DNA of 64,000 nucleotides, taken from the NCBI GenBank assembly GCA_027488815.1, contig JAIYAX010000025.1, positions 1-64,000 of the forward strand, in the 5' to 3' direction. Source of the stretch: Cytophagaceae bacterium (GTDB lineage: Bacteria > Bacteroidota > Bacteroidia > Cytophagales > JAIYAX01). The position numbers and the translations under genes are program-made. Position 1 is the stretch's first letter. Every line of letters starts with the position of its first letter. This document shows, one piece after another, positions 7,542-19,962 of the stretch. Under the pieces are notes generated by a model. That model was not told the DNA's origin. It was given only the letters and a program-made list of their open reading frames with translations, and ran no database searches.

Positions 7542-7571
7542 TTGCAAGGTTGTTTTAATTGAATACTTTTG
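7542..7571 (+). promoter_or_regulatory. Bacteroidota-type promoter for the YfiR/TPR/Sia operon
   Basis: TTG at 7542-7544, exactly 19 nt, then TACTTTTG at 7564-7571. This is a full match to the Bacteroidota -33 (TTTG/TTG) and -7 (TAnnTTTG) elements. It lies 27 nt upstream of the TTG start at 7598, leaving a leader of about 20 nt. Confidence 0.65.
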
Positions 7572-7597: not shown

Positions 7598-8182
7598 TTG
7601 CTGAATTACATTAGTCTAAATAAGCGAACCCAAAGAATAATTCCTTCGTTAAGAAGGTATTTATCGCTATTTTTGATCGTACTTATCACCTTAACCGCAA
7701 CTTCATTCGCTCCAAGTCGAATGCCTGACCCCAACAATAAGATTAGAATGTTGTATATTTGGTCATGTACTCAGGCCGTTCAATGGCCCGAAACGTCAAA
7801 CAATTCAGCGGAATTCACTATTGGTGTATATGGGGAGTCAGAGCTTTTCTCTGAAATAAGCACAGCGATTGGCCCCAGAAAAGTTGGAACTAAACCGGTA
7901 CTTGTCAAATCTTTTGAGAGCCTTTCTAAAGTAGATCAGGTTCAAATTCTATATGTAACTCCTGAACGAAGCAGCGATATTCCTGCTTTGGTAAACAAGT
8001 TTGCAGGTAAAGGTGTGTTGATTATCTCTGAAAAAGAGGGAATGGCAAAGAAAGGTGGATCAACCATTAATTTCATATTCAAGGAAAGTAAGTTAAAATA
8101 CGAATTCAATAAAAGTAATGCTGAGAAGTTTGGGCTGAAATTAGGCCTTCAGCTAGCCACTTTAGGAGTTGAAGTAAATTGA
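7598..8182 (+). CDS. YfiR-like (DUF4154) periplasmic protein
   Basis: A 194-aa exported protein of the YfiR family. The N-terminus carries a basic stretch and a hydrophobic segment (about residues 20-40), and the mature part has the family order: an IRMLYIWSCTQAVQWP helix, then FTIGVYGES, then VQILYVTPERSSDIP, GVLIISEKEGMAKKGG and INFIFKESKLKYEFN. In Pseudomonas, YfiR is a periplasmic inhibitor of the diguanylate cyclase YfiN. No cyclase is nearby here. The start is TTG; no in-frame ATG precedes the signal segment. Its end overlaps the TPR gene by TTGA. Confidence 0.85.
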   Translation: MLNYISLNKRTQRIIPSLRRYLSLFLIVLITLTATSFAPSRMPDPNNKIRMLYIWSCTQAVQWPETSNNSAEFTIGVYGESELFSEISTAIGPRKVGTKPVLVKSFESLSKVDQVQILYVTPERSSDIPALVNKFAGKGVLIISEKEGMAKKGGSTINFIFKESKLKYEFNKSNAEKFGLKLGLQLATLGVEVN

Positions 8183-9366
8183 AGAAGCTTAGCTACATAT
8201 TGACCCTTCTTATTCTGACTGTGGCCTACAGCCAGGCACAGGTGATCAATCTCACTCTGGCAGAGAAACTACATTCTGAAGGGAAACTTGAGTTGGCTAA
8301 ATCAGCAATAAATGAGGCGGCACTAAATAGTCAAACCCTGAACAATCCAAGGACCTGGTACGTACGATTGTTTATCTATAAAGACCTGTTCAAAGAGGCG
8401 AAAGGATTTAAAGAAAGAATAGCAGAGGCTGAGAATAACAGGAAAATCGCTATCGAGAGCGGTAGAAAATGTATTGACTTGGACACCAAGAAGGAGTACA
8501 ATAAAGAGTGTTACCAGATTATCAACTTCCTGAGGAGTTCAATCCTTTCGGATGGATATACTTCATTCAAAGCAAAAGACGATAAGAATGCGATCCGATT
8601 GCTTGAAGAGTTCATGTTAATCACCAATTCATTTACCAATACGCAGGAAGATGCTCAAGCCAATTTTATCGCAGGGGTAGCATGTTACAGGTCAAATGAA
8701 CTTCTGAAAGCAAGTAACTTTTTATCGAAAGCCGTTATGCTCAATTATCCTGACGGAGCACTTTATGTATATCTGGCCAAAGTATTGTGGTTGCAAAATA
8801 AACAAATGGAGGCTGTTCTTACTCTTGAAAAAGGATTTGAGCGCTATCCAAAGATGAAGGAAATAGTCTCTAATCTTTATGAGTTCAATAAAGAACTGAA
8901 GAGATATGAGAACAACAGACAAGTGTTGACGAAGGCAACCGTCAACAATCCTGCTGATATTGATTATTGGATACTCCTTGCCATCACATATGAAGACCTG
9001 GCAGAATTGAAATCTGATTTGGACAAAAACAATGTTTTGGATAGTGCAAAGATTGCCTATAAGAAAGCGCTGGAGCTTAATCCAAATGATGATGTGGCCA
9101 GTTCTAATTTGGGAATCTTGTTATATAATCAAGGGGTTAATATCATCAATACCGTAAGTATTGATACAGATATCGTTGGTATTGGAGAAATACAGGGCAA
9201 GGCATTGGTAATGTTTAAAGAATCACTACCCTACATGCTCAAGGCTTTCGAATTGAATCCCAAGCGCAAGGAAACCCTCAAGGGATTGGAGAACATCTAC
9301 CACATCATTGGTGAGTTCGATAAGTCCAATCAGTTCAAGCTGCTTTATCAAAAAGAGTCTGAGTAG
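8179..9366 (+). CDS. Periplasmic TPR-repeat protein
   Basis: A 395-aa exported protein with the signal peptide MKKLSYILTLLILTVAYSQA, cleaved before residue 21. Helical hairpins with TPR spacing run over residues 25-390; the clearest are near residues 155-260 (ANFIAGVACYRSNELLKA, AVLTLEKGFERYP) and 290-390 (AYKKALELNPNDDVASSNLG, MLKAFELNPKRKETLKGLE). TPRs act as protein-binding scaffolds. The TTG start overlaps the YfiR stop (TTGA) and gives a perfect signal peptide, so it is secure. The operon places it between a periplasmic YfiR protein and a membrane phosphatase, so it may link periplasmic sensing to that phosphatase; this is inference. Confidence 0.8.
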   Translation: MKKLSYILTLLILTVAYSQAQVINLTLAEKLHSEGKLELAKSAINEAALNSQTLNNPRTWYVRLFIYKDLFKEAKGFKERIAEAENNRKIAIESGRKCIDLDTKKEYNKECYQIINFLRSSILSDGYTSFKAKDDKNAIRLLEEFMLITNSFTNTQEDAQANFIAGVACYRSNELLKASNFLSKAVMLNYPDGALYVYLAKVLWLQNKQMEAVLTLEKGFERYPKMKEIVSNLYEFNKELKRYENNRQVLTKATVNNPADIDYWILLAITYEDLAELKSDLDKNNVLDSAKIAYKKALELNPNDDVASSNLGILLYNQGVNIINTVSIDTDIVGIGEIQGKALVMFKESLPYMLKAFELNPKRKETLKGLENIYHIIGEFDKSNQFKLLYQKESE

Positions 9367-9443
9367 TCTGACAAGATGATAGGAAATATTTTTTTTCCTG
9401 TGCATCATATGCCAAGTAAACTTATTTTTGGGTCTATAAACCT

Positions 9444-11279
9444 TTGAAATTGAGGTACAGACTAACCATAGGACGGAAAATTGGGATCGGTTTTGGTATC
9501 CTTATCTTCCTGACTCTCATCAACTTCGTACTCACGCTGGATACGGTCAACAAAAGTACTGACCTTAACAACAGCATCAATACCATCTACACGCCTTCTG
9601 TGCAGTTGTTTGAACGGCTCAATTACATGCTGCTCAGATCAAATAAGTACATCGAAAACTGGGTGGCAAGAGATGTAGAAGCTCCGTCTTCACCTGTCAA
9701 GGAACCCCTGCGCAAAATCATCAATGTAGAGTATCCAGCCCTGAAAAAGCAAATCAGGGAAATGAGTAAGTATTGGCCTGAGAAGGATCAAAAAAGAGTT
9801 GATACGCTTATTATTAAGATTGATGCTCTTTTTCATGACCACTATTCACAAGTGATGAATGGCCTGAACTCCTATGAAAGTTATCAGGATCCGATCATTA
9901 AGTTCATGTGGTCAGACTATGTCTACGCAGCAACCATTCCAGTTGAAATTGAGCAAATCCAGAAAGAACTCTCAGCGATCATAGAGTACGAGCGAAACAA
10001 TGCCGACAAAGCCAGCAATCAAATGGTGGACTCGTTTGACGTGCTGCAAACGGTAGTAAGGAACTCAGGAGTATTGCTCGTTATCGGAGGTATTTTGATT
10101 GCCTTCTTCACTATTCGCACCATTGTAAAACCAATCAAAGAGCTTCAGGGAGTTATTCAATTGCTTGGGAAAGGTATTTTCCCCAAAGAGAACATCATCA
10201 AAGGCAATGATGAGATTGGTGAAATGTCGATTGCGCTTGAAAACCTGATCAATGGCTTAAAGCGAACAACAGATTTTTCAAGAGAAATAGGAAATAGCAA
10301 TTTCAAAGCACATTATGATCCACTTTCCGCACAGGATGTTTTAGGACATGCCTTGCTTAAAATGCGTGGTCAGTTAAAAGAAAGTGAACAGCGCTTGGAA
10401 GCTAAAGTGTTAGAGCGTACTCAGGAGGTCATCAAACAGAACAAAGAGATACAGAAGCAGAGAGATGAGATCGAGGAGAAGAATAAGAGTTTACAGGTTC
10501 TTTATCAAAATGTAACGGATAGTATTCGCTATGCCAAGCGAATACAGCAATCCATTCTTCCTCCGATTGAAGTGGTCAGAGAGGCGTTACCAGAGTCATT
10601 TGTGCTATACAAACCCAAAGATATTGTTTCCGGGGATTTTTATTGGATGGATGATAGCATGAAGGATATTACCTGGATCGCTGCAGTTGACTGCACAGGT
10701 CATGGTGTTCCCGGGGCATTTATGTCCATCATTGGTTATAATTCACTTAACCAGATCATCGTTGAGAATAAGCCTTCGGTATCTGCAGCAGCAGTGCTCA
10801 ATAGGCTTAAAGCATTGGTTAGCCAATCCTTGAGGCAAACCCAGGATGGTGAGTCTTCCAAAGATGGAATGGACATCGCACTTTGTAAAATTGATAAAAA
10901 GAAGAAAGTGATTGAATTTGCCGGTGCTTTCAACCCCTTGCTTTATATCAAAACCTCACAAAGCAATGAACTACTGGAGATAAAAGGAAACAAATTCCCC
11001 ATTGGTATCTACATGCAGGAGGAAGATGAGCAGTTCACCAATCATCAGATCAAAATTGATGACGGCGACTCCTTCTACATCTTCTCCGATGGCTATGCAG
11101 ATCAGATCGGTGGACCAAGGAATAAGAAATTCCTCATTAAGAACTTTAGAAACCTGCTTTGCGAAATATATATGGAAAGTATGGAAAGGCAAAGGCAGAT
11201 CCTTAATGAAACTCTGGAGGAGTGGAAAGGTGAGCACGATCAGGTAGATGATATTCTTGTAATTGGTTTCAGGCTATAA
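9444..11279 (+). CDS. SiaA-like membrane PP2C (SpoIIE-type) phosphatase with HAMP domain
   Basis: A 611-aa inner-membrane protein. The order is TM1 (about 13-32), a helical periplasmic sensor (33-205, four-helix-bundle-like), TM2 (207-227), HAMP (228-280), a charged coiled coil (318-365) and a SpoIIE/PP2C domain (380-611). Metal-binding acidic residues are D398 in SGDFYW, D416 in DCTGHGVPGAF, and D602/D603 near the end. In Pseudomonas, SiaA dephosphorylates SiaC. The TTG start is needed to include TM1; the next in-frame ATG is at residue 62. A -7-like TATTTTTG at 9423-9430 lies just upstream without a good -33, so the gene may also have its own weak promoter. SiaB- and SiaC-like genes follow. 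Confidence 0.88.
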   Translation: MKLRYRLTIGRKIGIGFGILIFLTLINFVLTLDTVNKSTDLNNSINTIYTPSVQLFERLNYMLLRSNKYIENWVARDVEAPSSPVKEPLRKIINVEYPALKKQIREMSKYWPEKDQKRVDTLIIKIDALFHDHYSQVMNGLNSYESYQDPIIKFMWSDYVYAATIPVEIEQIQKELSAIIEYERNNADKASNQMVDSFDVLQTVVRNSGVLLVIGGILIAFFTIRTIVKPIKELQGVIQLLGKGIFPKENIIKGNDEIGEMSIALENLINGLKRTTDFSREIGNSNFKAHYDPLSAQDVLGHALLKMRGQLKESEQRLEAKVLERTQEVIKQNKEIQKQRDEIEEKNKSLQVLYQNVTDSIRYAKRIQQSILPPIEVVREALPESFVLYKPKDIVSGDFYWMDDSMKDITWIAAVDCTGHGVPGAFMSIIGYNSLNQIIVENKPSVSAAAVLNRLKALVSQSLRQTQDGESSKDGMDIALCKIDKKKKVIEFAGAFNPLLYIKTSQSNELLEIKGNKFPIGIYMQEEDEQFTNHQIKIDDGDSFYIFSDGYADQIGGPRNKKFLIKNFRNLLCEIYMESMERQRQILNETLEEWKGEHDQVDDILVIGFRL

Positions 11280-11366
11280 TTAAGCAATGAAAGAGAAAGA
11301 TTGTAACTTTGAGTTTGGCAATTACCCAATAAACATGGTGAACCCAACTCGTATAAACTAAGCCAC

Positions 11367-11918
11367 ATGATTGACCTATACAGTTTATATGAAAGAATGC
11401 ATGATAACAACATCATGCTGTCTTTTAAAGGCGAGGTTACTTTTGATCTGATCGACTCTATCTTAAAGATTATAGAAGGTCGTTTGGACAAAATGGAAGA
11501 CGACCGAAAGACCATGAAAAAAGTCTACAATATTTTGGTTGAGTGTTTGCAGAATCTTTGCCATCATGTTGACTCAATTGAGATGGATGAGACCATGGCA
11601 AACATGAACAGAACAGCAATACTTATCATTTTTAGTGATGAGCATGCCTATCATGTAGTTACGGGTAACTATATCCAGAATGAGAATGTGACACCATTAC
11701 GCTCCTGGTTAGATCAGATAAACTCTAACACCAAAGAGGAGCTAAGGGAGTTGTACAAGAAAATCCTAAACAACGAGCAGTTCTCAGCCAAAGGTGGAGG
11801 TGGGTTGGGCTTTATTGATATTGCCCGTAAATCCGGACAGAAGTTGCTGTACAATTTTCAGCCTGTCAATACCAAGTATTCATTTTTTAGTTTTCAGATC
11901 AACATACCTAAACAGTAG
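11367..11918 (+). CDS. SiaB-like (DUF6272) GHKL-fold protein kinase
   Basis: A 183-aa cytosolic protein with a HATPase (GHKL) fold like SiaB and anti-sigma-factor kinases. An N-box-like segment NILVECLQNLCHH gives E59 and N63, and a glycine-rich lid GGGGLGFIDIARKSG lies at residues 143-157. In Pseudomonas, SiaB phosphorylates a threonine of SiaC, opposing the SiaA phosphatase. The length and motif order fit the SiaB family. It lies 87 nt after the phosphatase gene; that gap contains TAACTTTG (11304-11311), a perfect -7 element without a recognisable -33. The SiaC-like gene starts 13 nt downstream. Confidence 0.85.
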   Translation: MIDLYSLYERMHDNNIMLSFKGEVTFDLIDSILKIIEGRLDKMEDDRKTMKKVYNILVECLQNLCHHVDSIEMDETMANMNRTAILIIFSDEHAYHVVTGNYIQNENVTPLRSWLDQINSNTKEELRELYKKILNNEQFSAKGGGGLGFIDIARKSGQKLLYNFQPVNTKYSFFSFQINIPKQ

Positions 11919-11931
11919 TATAGATACTGCC

Positions 11932-12312
11932 ATGGAGCCACTTATTATAGAACCATCAAATACCACACCTAAAGTTAAGTTTGATCCTGCAACCGGGGTT
12001 ATGCTACTAAGCGGCAGGTCTACTCCTGAAAACTCAGTCGAGTTTTACAAACAGATGTTGGACTGGCTTGACGAGTATGCAGGCAGACCTTGTCAGCGAA
12101 CGGAACTCAATATCAAACTTGAGTATTTTAATACCTCATCATCCAAATGCCTTCTTGATATTTTCAAAAGCTTCAATAATCTGCATAAAGCAGGTAATGA
12201 CGTGATTGTAAAGTGGTATTATGAGGAAGAGGATGAAGATATGCAAGAGGCCGGTGAAGATTACTCCGACTTACTAAATGTTCCATTTGAGATCATAGAG
12301 GTAAAGGAGTAA
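11932..12312 (+). CDS. SiaC-like (DUF1987) phospho-switch protein
   Basis: A 126-aa cytosolic protein of the DUF1987/SiaC family. The hallmark segment LEYFNTSSSK is present, with threonine at residue 68; from memory, Thr68 is also the residue phosphorylated in Pseudomonas SiaC. Upstream features are PKVKFDPATGVMLLSGRS and ENSVEFYKQMLDWL; an acidic EEEDEDMQEAGEDY stretch precedes the C-terminal strand. The start is the ATG at 11932; a longer frame opening at 11794 would run through the SiaB coding region. Dephosphorylated SiaC activates the cyclase SiaD in Pseudomonas; the partner here is unknown. The next gene starts 1 nt after its stop. Confidence 0.88.
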   Translation: MEPLIIEPSNTTPKVKFDPATGVMLLSGRSTPENSVEFYKQMLDWLDEYAGRPCQRTELNIKLEYFNTSSSKCLLDIFKSFNNLHKAGNDVIVKWYYEEEDEDMQEAGEDYSDLLNVPFEIIEVKE

Positions 12313-12313
12313 G

Positions 12314-12796
12314 ATGAAGAAAAGCGAGATCTTCGAGAAGGAAGGCAATTATGTAGAGGAGCTTAGAGAGTATTGCGATATGCAATCGGCCAATGTACCC
12401 GAACTGAGGACCAAGCTTCTTGAGACTGTCAACCATTATGAAGAGCTCATCAACCAGGCGCAGCTTATTACCAAAGTAAGTGACCGCCTTCAGCACAAAC
12501 TCAATAACCTGAATGACAAACTTAATGTCAAAAACATTGAGCTTCAGGAAACCATTGATGAATTAACCAAGGCAAGGGCAAGCCGTAAGGCCACCACGAT
12601 CGTTCTTGTGGTAGCGATAGCTCTTTTCTTTTTCTCTGAGGCCTTGCTAGAGCCTTACATCGAGACACATACAAGTAATTTTTACCTGGGTTTTGCAGCC
12701 AAGTTTGGACTCATGTTGCTCCTCAAACCTATTGATTTTGTGATTGAGAAATGGTTGTTGCAAGATGCCCTTAAAAAAGCCGGCAAAACCGGTTAG
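12314..12796 (+). CDS. Small coiled-coil membrane protein, last gene of the Sia-like operon
   Basis: A 160-aa protein that I cannot assign to a characterised family. Residues 1-90 are highly charged with heptad-like leucines (ELINQAQLITKVSDRLQ, KLNNLNDKLNVKNIELQ), predicting a cytoplasmic coiled coil. Two hydrophobic segments follow, at about 94-113 and 122-146, and a basic tail ends the protein. It occupies the place that the diguanylate cyclase SiaD holds in Pseudomonas siaABCD. The spacing of 1 nt from the SiaC-like gene implies co-translation. A role as the membrane output or partner of the SiaC-like protein is inference from context. It is convergent with comB, with a 3-nt gap. Confidence 0.75.
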   Translation: MKKSEIFEKEGNYVEELREYCDMQSANVPELRTKLLETVNHYEELINQAQLITKVSDRLQHKLNNLNDKLNVKNIELQETIDELTKARASRKATTIVLVVAIALFFFSEALLEPYIETHTSNFYLGFAAKFGLMLLLKPIDFVIEKWLLQDALKKAGKTG

Positions 12797-15854: not shown

Positions 15855-16841
15855 TTATTCCAGAATTTTGAAAAGGTCGTCAAGCCTTGGTGTCAGGATC
15901 AATTCAGTTCTGCGGTTCTTTTGTCGTGCTGCGCTATTTTTTGCTGAATCAATGGGGCTGTATTGGGAGCGACCAGCAGCAGTCAGGTTTTCGGCAGGCA
16001 CTCCTTCATTTTGAAGAATTCGCACGATTGCATTTGCCCTGAGCACACTCAAATCCCAGTTATCCTGCATCCCTGCTGTTCCTTTTGTAATCGGAACATC
16101 ATCTGTATGGCCTTCAACCAATATAATTACTTCTTTGTGGTTTTTTAGCACGCCGGATACCTTTTTCAGAGCATCTTTTCCTTTATTGTCAACAGAGTAT
16201 GATCCTGATTTGAAGAGTAAATCTTCGCTTAACGACACATATACCTTCCCATTTTTTATCTGCACAGTAAGGTCGCTTTCTTTAAAACTTAACAAGGCAT
16301 CGGATATTTGAGCACGAAGGGCATTCACCGATTTTTCTTTTTCTGATAAGATGTTTTCAAGCTCTTTCATTTTCTTTTCTCTTGCCAACAGGTCATCATT
16401 CAGTTTTTTTACTTTTTGCTGTGCTTCAACAAGATTGGCCTCAATTGCCATAATTTCCTTTTCTCTAAGAGCTAGGTCCTTTGATAGTTTACTTTGCTCT
16501 GCAGTACTATTAGATGCCAGCCGTTCATGGTTTTTAAGCAAGCTTTCATATGTAGCATTGAGTTCTTTGTAAAGTTTTTGAGCTCGATCAAAATCCACAG
16601 CCATGGTTGCAGAGTCATTTGTAAGTCTACCCAGGCGCTTATTCAGCCCAGCCAATTCTTCATTGGCCTTTTGAAAATCAGCAGTAAGCTTGTCAATGTC
16701 TTTTCGACATTGCTCACTTTCACCCTGGTATTTTATCTTTTCAGCATTTAGCCGCTCATATTTATTTGCCGATACACAACTGCCCAATAAAACGAGAAAG
16801 GCAAAAGCGGATAAGGTTGAAAGCCGGATATGGTTTGTCAT
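15855..16841 (-). CDS. OmpA-family lipoprotein with long coiled coil
   Basis: A 328-aa outer-membrane lipoprotein. The signal peptide ends in the lipobox LLGS|C at about residue 21. A long coiled coil follows (about 25-180, with many Lys/Glu/Leu heptads such as LSKDLALREKEIMAIEANL). Residues 190-320 form an OmpA C-terminal peptidoglycan-binding domain with VEGHTDDVPI, the NWDLSVLRANAIVRIL helix and RQKNRRTELILTP. It would tether the outer membrane to peptidoglycan. The start at 16841 gives a proper lipoprotein signal; the upstream ATG at 16898 would not. It diverges from the SDR gene. Confidence 0.9.
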   Translation of the reverse strand: MTNHIRLSTLSAFAFLVLLGSCVSANKYERLNAEKIKYQGESEQCRKDIDKLTADFQKANEELAGLNKRLGRLTNDSATMAVDFDRAQKLYKELNATYESLLKNHERLASNSTAEQSKLSKDLALREKEIMAIEANLVEAQQKVKKLNDDLLAREKKMKELENILSEKEKSVNALRAQISDALLSFKESDLTVQIKNGKVYVSLSEDLLFKSGSYSVDNKGKDALKKVSGVLKNHKEVIILVEGHTDDVPITKGTAGMQDNWDLSVLRANAIVRILQNEGVPAENLTAAGRSQYSPIDSAKNSAARQKNRRTELILTPRLDDLFKILE

Positions 16842-16943
16842 AATAATGGATCGATGGTATTGAAAATATTTAGTAAAACTACTTTTCCTGAAACGCAAAG
16901 TCTATACCTTGCGAGCGGTAAGATATAAACATCTGATACAATT

Positions 16944-17823: not shown

Positions 17824-19830
17824 CTAGGGAAGTATTCCAAATTCAACCCGTCGGTTTTTTTGACGGGCATCAGGATCGTTGGTATTGTAGATGGGCTGTT
17901 TACCGCCATGCCCGATGATTTCTATGCGTGATTTGGCAATGCCACGCTCAACCAAATATTGCTTCACTTTAGCAGCTCTTTGGGTTGAGAGCCGTTTGTT
18001 GTAGGCAGTATTTCCACCAGGCTCTGTATGGCCGTGAACGGCTATTCTTAAATCCGGAAACTTCCTAAGCCAGTCCAGCAGGAATGATAAGTTATTTTCT
18101 GAGCCGGAAATCAATTCGTCTTTATCATATTCAAAAAGCAGATTTTCGAGTATAGCTCTTTCACCGGGCAGGCACCATTTTAGGTATAGCTCTTTTTCTC
18201 CCGGTTTGTCAGTAAATAAGGTATCAGTAATGAACCCGATATAAGGATGTTGTAATTCAATGACTAAATAGTGGCCGGCTGCATAGAGAACAGATATGAC
18301 AGAGTCAAACGTCTCGTTTTCAGCTAAAATAAAATCACCAATACGAATCCTCAACTTAACCGCTTGCGTTACTTCGGACCTCATGTTCCACCGAAAGGTT
18401 TGCGGGTACGTTTTAAGGCTATCCGGGATCAGTTCGGTGGGAACCGGCAAGCATTCCATCGCTTGGGATGTAGGTGCTTTGGAAATGTAGAAATCACCAT
18501 AATTAACCCGACTATTTCGTGTGCTGCTAAAGATAAACGAATCCGGCTCCGACAGCCACCTGAAATAACCCTCAAAGTATTCTGTATTGACCTTTGGGCC
18601 TAAATTTTCTGGCTCTGACCATTCCTTCCAGGTAGGTCCTTTGCGTTTTGAAACGTACACATCGGCTCCTCCATAGCCGGCGAAACCATAGGATGAAAAG
18701 TAAAGTATCTGTTTATCTTTACTTAGATAAGGTGCGAATTCAAAGCCAGCCGAATTGATCGAAGGCCCCATATGCTGAGGCGCAGCATATTGACCGTTGG
18801 GCTGCCTGAGGCTAACGTACAGGTCGGTTTTACCATAACTGTCTTCTCTCGACAGTGACATTAAGATGACTTGCTCATCCGGGCTGACCCATACCGTGTT
18901 TTCTCGTTCATCAAGGCTATAAAAGTCTGCAATGGAAACCGGCTTAGGGTCTGCCCATTCTCCGGTGGCTAGTTTTTGACTTAATAAAATGGATTTTATT
19001 TTTCTGTCCCCTTCCAACCTGGACTTCCCACTGAGGTAAAGTCTTTGCCCATCGGATGAAAGTCCGTAGAGCTCATTATCATCATAGGTATTCAATCTTG
19101 GCGATAGGGGTTTAGCAGCTATCCATTGACTATCTTGAAATTTACTGTAATAAAGGTCCCCGCTGTTAGGGTTTAATCCTTCGGCATTGCTGTTACAGTT
19201 TTTTCTAGAAAACAGAAGTGAACCTGTGTTTGAGTCGTAGATTGGCCCTAGCTCATCGCAAGAGGTGTTCGTTACCATGAAAGGCTCAGTCAGATAGGCA
19301 TCCATCTGATTATGCTGGGATATTTTGGCCTCTATGGGTGACCCACTTTCACTTACCCCGACAGCATCAAGTTGTAAGATGTTTTTAGAAAATCGGGTGT
19401 TGAAACGCAGCTTCAGGCCAAGCAGATCACTTATGGGTTGCTTCAAATTGATCCGAAGTATTTTTTTAGAATCAGCAATCGGAAAGGCCTCATTTACATT
19501 GACCTCTATTGTTTTTCCATTGCTGAGAATGGCCTGAATGCCTGAGAAAGAATGGGCTCCACTATTGATAAATACAGCAATTTGTTTAGCCTTTAAAGCT
19601 TTTTCAAAACCCAGGATGATAAAGGGGCTCAGGTCATTGCCTGCAGGCGCCCAAGAACAGCCATTAACTTGATGGTTGGGGAACACATTGGGTTTTCCTA
19701 ATGCCTCAGTTGCTTTGTAAAGCTTTGGGGAGAAAGAAGAGGATGCAGAAAAAACCTTAGTTGCCCAATAGGTTTGACCCAGAGAAGAGAACGAAAAAGC
19801 CAACAGGCAGCACAACATGCAAAGACGCAT
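17824..19830 (-). CDS. OmpA-PD40 envelope protein with N-terminal jelly-roll-like domain
   Basis: A 668-aa exported protein. The signal peptide covers residues 1-19 (ending SSLG|Q). Residues 22-170 are beta-rich and resemble a discoidin-like carbohydrate-binding domain (ATEALGKPNVFPN, then WAPAGNDLSPFIILGF). Residues 185-445 carry PD40/WD40-like repeats (LYLSGKSRLEGD, ILYFSSYGFAGYGGADVYVS, FIFSSTRNSRVNYGDFYIS). Residues 560-668 form an OmpA peptidoglycan-binding domain (HGHTEPGGNTAYNKRLS, RQKNRRVEF). The layout recalls the T9SS component PorE, but the TPR part is missing and no lipobox is seen. The start at 19830 gives the signal peptide; the ATG at 19875 does not. It converges on the SDR gene with a 4-nt gap. 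Confidence 0.82.
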   Translation of the reverse strand: MRLCMLCCLLAFSFSSLGQTYWATKVFSASSSFSPKLYKATEALGKPNVFPNHQVNGCSWAPAGNDLSPFIILGFEKALKAKQIAVFINSGAHSFSGIQAILSNGKTIEVNVNEAFPIADSKKILRINLKQPISDLLGLKLRFNTRFSKNILQLDAVGVSESGSPIEAKISQHNQMDAYLTEPFMVTNTSCDELGPIYDSNTGSLLFSRKNCNSNAEGLNPNSGDLYYSKFQDSQWIAAKPLSPRLNTYDDNELYGLSSDGQRLYLSGKSRLEGDRKIKSILLSQKLATGEWADPKPVSIADFYSLDERENTVWVSPDEQVILMSLSREDSYGKTDLYVSLRQPNGQYAAPQHMGPSINSAGFEFAPYLSKDKQILYFSSYGFAGYGGADVYVSKRKGPTWKEWSEPENLGPKVNTEYFEGYFRWLSEPDSFIFSSTRNSRVNYGDFYISKAPTSQAMECLPVPTELIPDSLKTYPQTFRWNMRSEVTQAVKLRIRIGDFILAENETFDSVISVLYAAGHYLVIELQHPYIGFITDTLFTDKPGEKELYLKWCLPGERAILENLLFEYDKDELISGSENNLSFLLDWLRKFPDLRIAVHGHTEPGGNTAYNKRLSTQRAAKVKQYLVERGIAKSRIEIIGHGGKQPIYNTNDPDARQKNRRVEFGILP

Positions 19831-19962
19831 AGAGCCAAAATAACGGAATTTTACATAAGCAAAGACAATTGCCATTTTTCGGTTGAACTTTGTTAGGCGG
19901 TTTTCAGTTTAATCCCTTAAACTCATTAACTTTAACAGTCTTTTCTACTGCCACGACATTCC

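Follow-up and report, generated by a model that had tools for sequence, protein, structure and literature searches.

A Sia-type operon in a Cytophagaceae bacterium that probably signals through a membrane protein with a SiaD-like stalk

In the SiaABCD system of Pseudomonas aeruginosa, SiaC recognizes its target SiaD by a stalk motif, of which it binds two copies, with T68 of SiaC bonding to S82 and Q86 of SiaD while I81, D83, R84 and Y85 surround them (PMC8457831). SiaC has hitherto been studied only as the activator of one diguanylate cyclase, and in the one open-access paper found to name DUF1987, such proteins are merely suggested to modulate adjacent proteins (PMC8457831). For Bacteroidota, no description of SiaC-type switches was found in the open-access literature searched, a search that did not extend to subscription papers or preprints. 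Here we describe an operon from a Cytophagaceae bacterium, located in a 64,000-nucleotide stretch of contig JAIYAX010000025.1 (assembly GCA_027488815.1), referred to as the window. At 7598-12796 on the + strand, six consecutive open reading frames (ORFs) encode a YfiR-type protein (DUF4154), a secreted tetratricopeptide repeat (TPR) protein, SiaA, SiaB, SiaC and a sixth protein, P6. This order, recognized in an original prediction made from the letters of the window, agrees with the ORFs and with scans of the six proteins against Pfam and NCBIfam models. We consider it likely that the operon is a Sia-type partner switch working by the steps proposed below, in which the output protein has the docking stalk of SiaD but, where the diguanylate cyclase would be, a membrane domain.

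P6 (12314-12796, + strand) is a GGDEF-less, SiaD-like protein consisting of a stalk and a two-helix membrane domain; homology to SiaD-type cyclases, covering their N-terminus and stalk, extends over its first ~85 residues. A profile built from P6 N-termini recovers four stalk-histidine kinases at E-values from 4e-17 to 2e-14, and also five proteobacterial proteins of the SiaD or stalk-kinase type at E-values from 2e-7 to 1.7e-3. All nine outrank 1000 shuffled sequences and more than 900 background ORFs, coiled coils included, among which the best match reaches E 0.022; the Paraburkholderia alignment spans the entire N-terminal domain and stalk (P6 profile 5-75). Residues 54-60 of P6 read KVSDRLQ, where the Pseudomonas SiaD counterpart is ISDRYQ. 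The putative SiaC-docking motif SDRLQ (residues 56-60; 12479-12493, + strand) is equivalent to S82-D83-R84-Y85-Q86 of SiaD (PMC8457831). Among 22 P6 homologues gathered regardless of this motif, S56 is conserved in 95%, D57 in 100%, L59 in 91%, Q60 in 100% and K62 in 100%, compared with a stalk mean of 56%; the occurrence of the motif in 52 named loci carries no weight here, because the search that gave these loci selected for it. Two plasmid-borne SiaD-type loci served for comparison, one from Caballeronia (siaA-siaB-siaC-GGDEF) and one from Azospirillum (siaA-siaB-siaC followed by a histidine kinase and a diguanylate cyclase), the latter with stalk motifs KISDRLQ and KISDRMQ resembling those of P6 and SiaD. 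Judged by these alignments, P6 is the counterpart of SiaD, a SiaD-type stalk carrying a different output domain, and not the unrelated filler of SiaD's place that the original prediction took it for. The idea that P6 conservation reflects a mere coiled coil was rejected, because the docking motif is among the most conserved stretches and SiaD-type proteins outrank shuffled sequences and background coiled coils. Sequence comparison of P6 with the Protein Data Bank (PDB) returned coiled-coil matches only, none of them meaningful.

Other proteins carry the same N-terminal stalk, as a phylum-wide search with the stalk profile showed. Directly after siaC, the stalk is joined to HisKA/HATPase domains (L206, L214, L218), GGDEF (L209, L210), a class III cyclase (L213, L217) or a SpoIIE domain of the PP2C type (L221), and at a further locus (L215) a stalk-histidine kinase lies one gene further from siaC. 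From these domain combinations, the stalk is best read as a portable adapter for five or more kinds of output, among them GGDEF, histidine kinase, class III cyclase, PP2C and the membrane domain. In a tree of SiaC proteins, enzyme-linked and membrane-linked members form two groups; label changes number 7, where shuffling gives 13.7 on average. The membrane type therefore looks like one old, Bacteroidota-centred SiaC group that has mostly been kept vertically. Free-standing stalk-histidine kinases without an adjacent SiaC were also seen (L103, L104, L105, L106), with the motifs KVSDR, RVSDRLQ, KVGDKLQ and KISDRLH; they are candidates for distant targets of the numerous SiaC copies.

The membrane domain of P6 occupies about residues 87-155 (12572-12778, + strand; alignment A2, 21 rows), where two hydrophobic helices replace GGDEF. 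No Pfam or NCBIfam family matches it over the cut-off, and a Foldseek search with the predicted fold of P6 gave no usable match. A93, F105, E109, K130 and P139 (P6 numbering) are invariant in all 21 rows, receiver-linked proteins included. AlphaFold2 predicts a helix at 3-22, a single helix at 28-119 running from the stalk into the first transmembrane helix (TM1) and a further helix at 123-159 (mean pLDDT 80.9), leaving a loop of only a few residues between the membrane helices. The same domain is found at the C-terminus of receiver proteins (L098, L099, L101, L102) and of TPR proteins (L176/L224). Three of these receiver proteins (L099, L101, L102) are receiver-PAS-like proteins with no siaC gene nearby. 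In the fourth locus (L098, G007:C1 228-240 kb), a yfiR gene lies beside genes for a CHASE8-HAMP-HisKA-receiver kinase and a receiver-coiled-coil protein whose C-terminus is the P6 membrane domain; YfiR input and P6-type output therefore occur around a histidine-aspartate relay as well. Placement behind receiver, receiver-PAS and TPR parts would fit an output domain. The genes downstream of P6 in other genomes include no constant partner that names a membrane target. Tentatively, and with slightly less than even confidence, we propose that the domain is a new output domain, a small two-helix inner-membrane effector serving a number of unrelated switches (SiaC docking, receiver phosphorylation, TPR). 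It would let Bacteroidota that lack cyclic-di-GMP act directly on a membrane process by docking, and the SiaC-binding stalk would be a general adapter existing in at least five versions, SiaD among them.

Conservation of the operon supports the pairing of SiaC with P6. Seven other genomes (G008, G043/L118, G064/L142, G132/L124, G105/L122, G091/L134 and L125) have exactly the order YfiR-TPR-SiaA-SiaB-SiaC-P6, all on one strand, so the order is not due to chance; the synteny whose loss in relatives would, by the original prediction, weaken the module idea is retained. The window belongs to family f1, and family-labelled relatives with the exact order fall in at least two further families (f9 and f20). 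The downstream genes for ComB-like, GcvT and RNase HII proteins look common to the window and L118. A siaC gene stands directly before P6, or is fused to it, in 16 of 23 cases gathered by P6 similarity alone and in 46 of the 52 named loci (Cytophagales, Bacteroidales, Kapabacteria). Fusions include SiaB-SiaC followed by P6 (L086, L087) and SiaC-P6 in a single chain of 324 aa (L097). By gene content and order, siaB-siaC-P6 is the core of the operon. The cultured relatives Marinoscillum furvescens and Ekhidna lutea carry this core with neither yfiR nor a TPR gene next to it. Three contigs of metagenome-assembled genomes with Bacteroidota-type operons are titled Thalassovita, Bifidobacterium breve and Rickettsiales (L131, L134, L156), titles that look mislabelled.

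The three switch proteins keep their active residues. SiaA (9444-11279, + strand) has the architecture transmembrane helix, extracytoplasmic helical bundle, transmembrane helix, HAMP (222-273), coiled coil and PP2C (SpoIIE, 410-610), with Pfam matches to SpoIIE (3e-17) and HAMP. Its residues 333-610 align to the PP2C domain of P. aeruginosa SiaA (6k4e, 3e-39), and the metal-binding and Asp motifs GDF, VDCxGHG, SDG and DDI are retained. SiaB (11367-11918, + strand) is a GHKL-like kinase that matches SiaB_fam_kinase over the NCBIfam cut-off (5.8e-47) and DUF6272 (7e-40); it aligns to SiaB 6kko and retains the catalytic-site Glu of VE..QN. SiaC (11932-12312, + strand; PF09345, 2.4e-44) retains Y65, N67, T68 and S69 in alignment with P. 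aeruginosa SiaC, N67-T68-S69 being the phospho-acceptor and docking motif, with the T68 codon at 12133-12135. The ORF list gives siaC as a 172-aa frame from 11794, and the ATG at 11932 agrees with relatives. From the conserved motifs and Pseudomonas biochemistry, we infer that SiaB phosphorylates SiaC and that SiaA reverses it. A second siaA-siaB-siaC set lies in the same genome (L077, G000:C20, about 173-181 kb); its SiaA is a HAMP-GAF-PAS-PP2C protein of 1111 aa, and the gene after its siaC encodes an ABC-2 transporter with a TerB-like N-terminus, in which a search for the stalk detected none.

On the input side, the YfiR/HmsC-like protein (7598-8182, + strand) is a putative periplasmic input regulator with a signal peptide, identified by DUF4154 (PF13689, 2.2e-25) and by alignment with syntenic relatives. 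It falls below the NCBIfam YfiR equivalog cut-offs, though the DUF4154 model matched, and it has no match in the PDB by sequence; its start codon is uncertain (TTG at 7598), with the signal peptide inside the ORF. The TPR protein (8179-9366, + strand), a second putative input component, matches TPR models, has an N-terminal signal sequence and is conserved at 520-570 bits in the same position of six complete operons. The SiaA sensor, at about residues 31-205, is predicted to be an extracytoplasmic four-helix bundle, nearest to the ligand-binding domains of NarQ, Vc1313 and MCP2201 with weak E-values; TorS-TorT is also among the listed structural neighbours. In TorS-TorT, a periplasmic protein controls a helical-bundle sensor, a possible precedent for YfiR and the TPR protein acting on SiaA. 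The domain scan of SiaA found neither CHASE8 nor GGDEF. YfiR and the TPR protein always go with one SiaA subtype of ~610 aa with the predicted four-helix-bundle sensor, and the input side differs among other relatives, which have a Reg_prop/Y_Y_Y beta-propeller SiaA (L126), a TPR-SiaA (L121) or a receiver-PP2C-SiaB fusion (L143). A periplasmic input role for the two proteins, as the original prediction had it, is plausible: this constant company argues for it, and its basis is gene order.

These elements suggest the following mechanism. YfiR and the TPR protein would pick up a signal in the periplasm, which would alter the four-helix-bundle sensor of SiaA, and HAMP would relay the change to the PP2C domain, which may oppose SiaB over phosphorylation of SiaC T68, as the conserved motifs and Pseudomonas biochemistry suggest. 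Unphosphorylated SiaC would then dock on SDRLQ of a dimeric P6 stalk, a step to which stalk homology, motif conservation, gene pairing and the SiaC-P6 fusion all point. Since the predicted stalk helix continues unbroken into TM1, docking could twist or stiffen the P6 membrane helices and so alter the activity or the binding of P6 in the inner membrane, without a second messenger.

Several observations weigh against this interpretation. The full P6 profile did not recover P. aeruginosa SiaD from PDB sequences at E <= 10, and the NCBIfam SiaD model gives no more than weak matches to P6 members (14 of 22, best 0.0023), so the link between P6 and SiaD runs via other SiaD-type relatives. Similarity scores are inflated by coiled coils, and P6 was modelled as a monomer, at a pTM of 0.40. 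Moreover, 7 of the 23 P6 genes have no neighbouring siaC, and in three Reichenbachiella loci (L161, L163, L164) siaB is followed directly by P6; there, SiaC seems to have been lost or moved.

The output also has to be judged against the genome, whose assembly comprises 3.37 Mb in 30 contigs. The original prediction reported no GGDEF domain in or next to the operon, and the domain scans likewise found none there. Searches of the assembly, with positive controls, detected no GGDEF, EAL or PilZ domain; GGDEF was also absent from 22 related genomes chosen for P6, SiaC or related genes, and among the 148 genomes of the order a single one gives a match. Because of these counts, the missing cyclase is a property of the group, and local loss of GGDEF was rejected. 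Across the same 148 genomes, SiaC occurs in 95, DUF4154 (YfiR) in 76 and a P6-like sequence in 47. Two members of family f14 (G046, G101) show a large expansion of SiaC, with 27 matches in one genome. The suggested rewiring to a cyclic-di-GMP-independent output is therefore supported as to the output, through the missing domains and the kept synteny, but the direction of change has no support in the data; since the membrane-type SiaC group looks old and mostly vertical, a recent rewiring is unsupported. An ordinary Sia system with a diverged diguanylate cyclase, or another cyclic dinucleotide-making enzyme overlooked by the search, could be imagined, as very diverged domains can escape profiles and the assembly is fragmented. 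Given a genome 99.6% complete, the order-wide rarity of GGDEF and a 2005 census that found no diguanylate cyclases in the Bacteroidetes sequenced by then (PMC1183210), we regard this as extremely improbable.

Other readings concern what P6 does with SiaC. P6 might be a passive membrane anchor or sink that holds unphosphorylated SiaC, with the true effector being another SiaC target in the genome, such as a kinase or transporter. The lack of a recognisable catalytic domain in P6, the ABC-2 transporter beside the second SiaABC set and the free-standing stalk-histidine kinases of related genomes would suit this. However, P6 is the only stalk protein that the stalk profile search found in the source genome, and its membrane domain is conserved past the needs of an anchor, with its invariant A, F, E, K and P, and recurs on receiver, PAS and TPR modules; we therefore think a passive role unlikely. 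The arrangement of two transmembrane helices, the brief external loop and a stalk in the cytoplasm would also suit a sensor, so that signalling might run in the opposite direction, with P6 as a receptor or relay that senses the state of the membrane or periplasm and controls how much SiaC is available; SiaA already has an input domain, and P6 could then form a feedback arm. Such a role is quite improbable, because the stalk is N-terminal to the output enzyme in every other fusion found, the same membrane domain takes the effector place C-terminal to receiver domains, and the predicted inter-helix loop is so short. P6 as a docking-controlled membrane output remains the reading we prefer.

Regarding layout, the yfiR and TPR genes overlap by 4 bases, siaB and siaC are 13 bases apart and siaC and P6 are separated by 1 base. 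Gaps of 77 and 87 bases precede siaA and siaB, so the tight order described by the original prediction applies to parts of the operon only. Upstream of yfiR lies a promoter-like TTG-N19-TAnnTTTG of the Bacteroidota type (7542-7571, + strand), a pattern match only; the + strand of the window has 5 of these. Near the operon, at window positions 15855-16898 and 17824-19875 on the - strand, two proteins have OmpA-type C-terminal domains by eye; they are apparently outside the operon.

These results give concrete form to the suggestion about DUF1987 proteins: the adjacent protein often carries a docking stalk, and its output may be cyclic-di-GMP synthesis, phosphotransfer, a class III nucleotide cyclase, a phosphatase or membrane action. 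They also offer a possible explanation of the role of SiaC, and perhaps of YfiR, in an order almost without GGDEF, and they name exact residues for the putative docking.

Among comparable systems, the L098 locus shares the YfiR-type input and the membrane output domain, but in this single example a histidine-aspartate relay to a receiver domain replaces SiaA, SiaB and SiaC. YfiBNR of P. aeruginosa (PMC4655355) likewise encodes a DUF4154/YfiR periplasmic protein with an inner-membrane HAMP signalling protein; here, there is neither YfiN (CHASE8-HAMP-GGDEF) nor a gene for the outer-membrane lipoprotein YfiB among the six, and the membrane partner is SiaA with its predicted four-helix-bundle sensor. 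Azospirillum SiaABC (L169) has the same pairing of SiaC with stalks (KISDRLQ/KISDRMQ) and one SiaC operon with two kinds of stalk output, the one there being a soluble histidine kinase and the other a diguanylate cyclase. With SiaABCD of P. aeruginosa (PMC7647112, PMC8457831), the operon shares the order siaA-siaB-siaC-target, the HAMP-PP2C phosphatase, the GHKL-like kinase, N67-T68-S69 of SiaC and a target whose SiaD-type stalk bears the docking motif [IV]SDR[YL]Q. It differs in having a two-helix membrane domain in place of GGDEF, an organism without cyclic-di-GMP enzymes, and yfiR and TPR genes before siaA. Because it resembles SiaABCD up to the stalk but lacks the defining GGDEF target SiaD, the operon is not SiaABCD in the strict sense.

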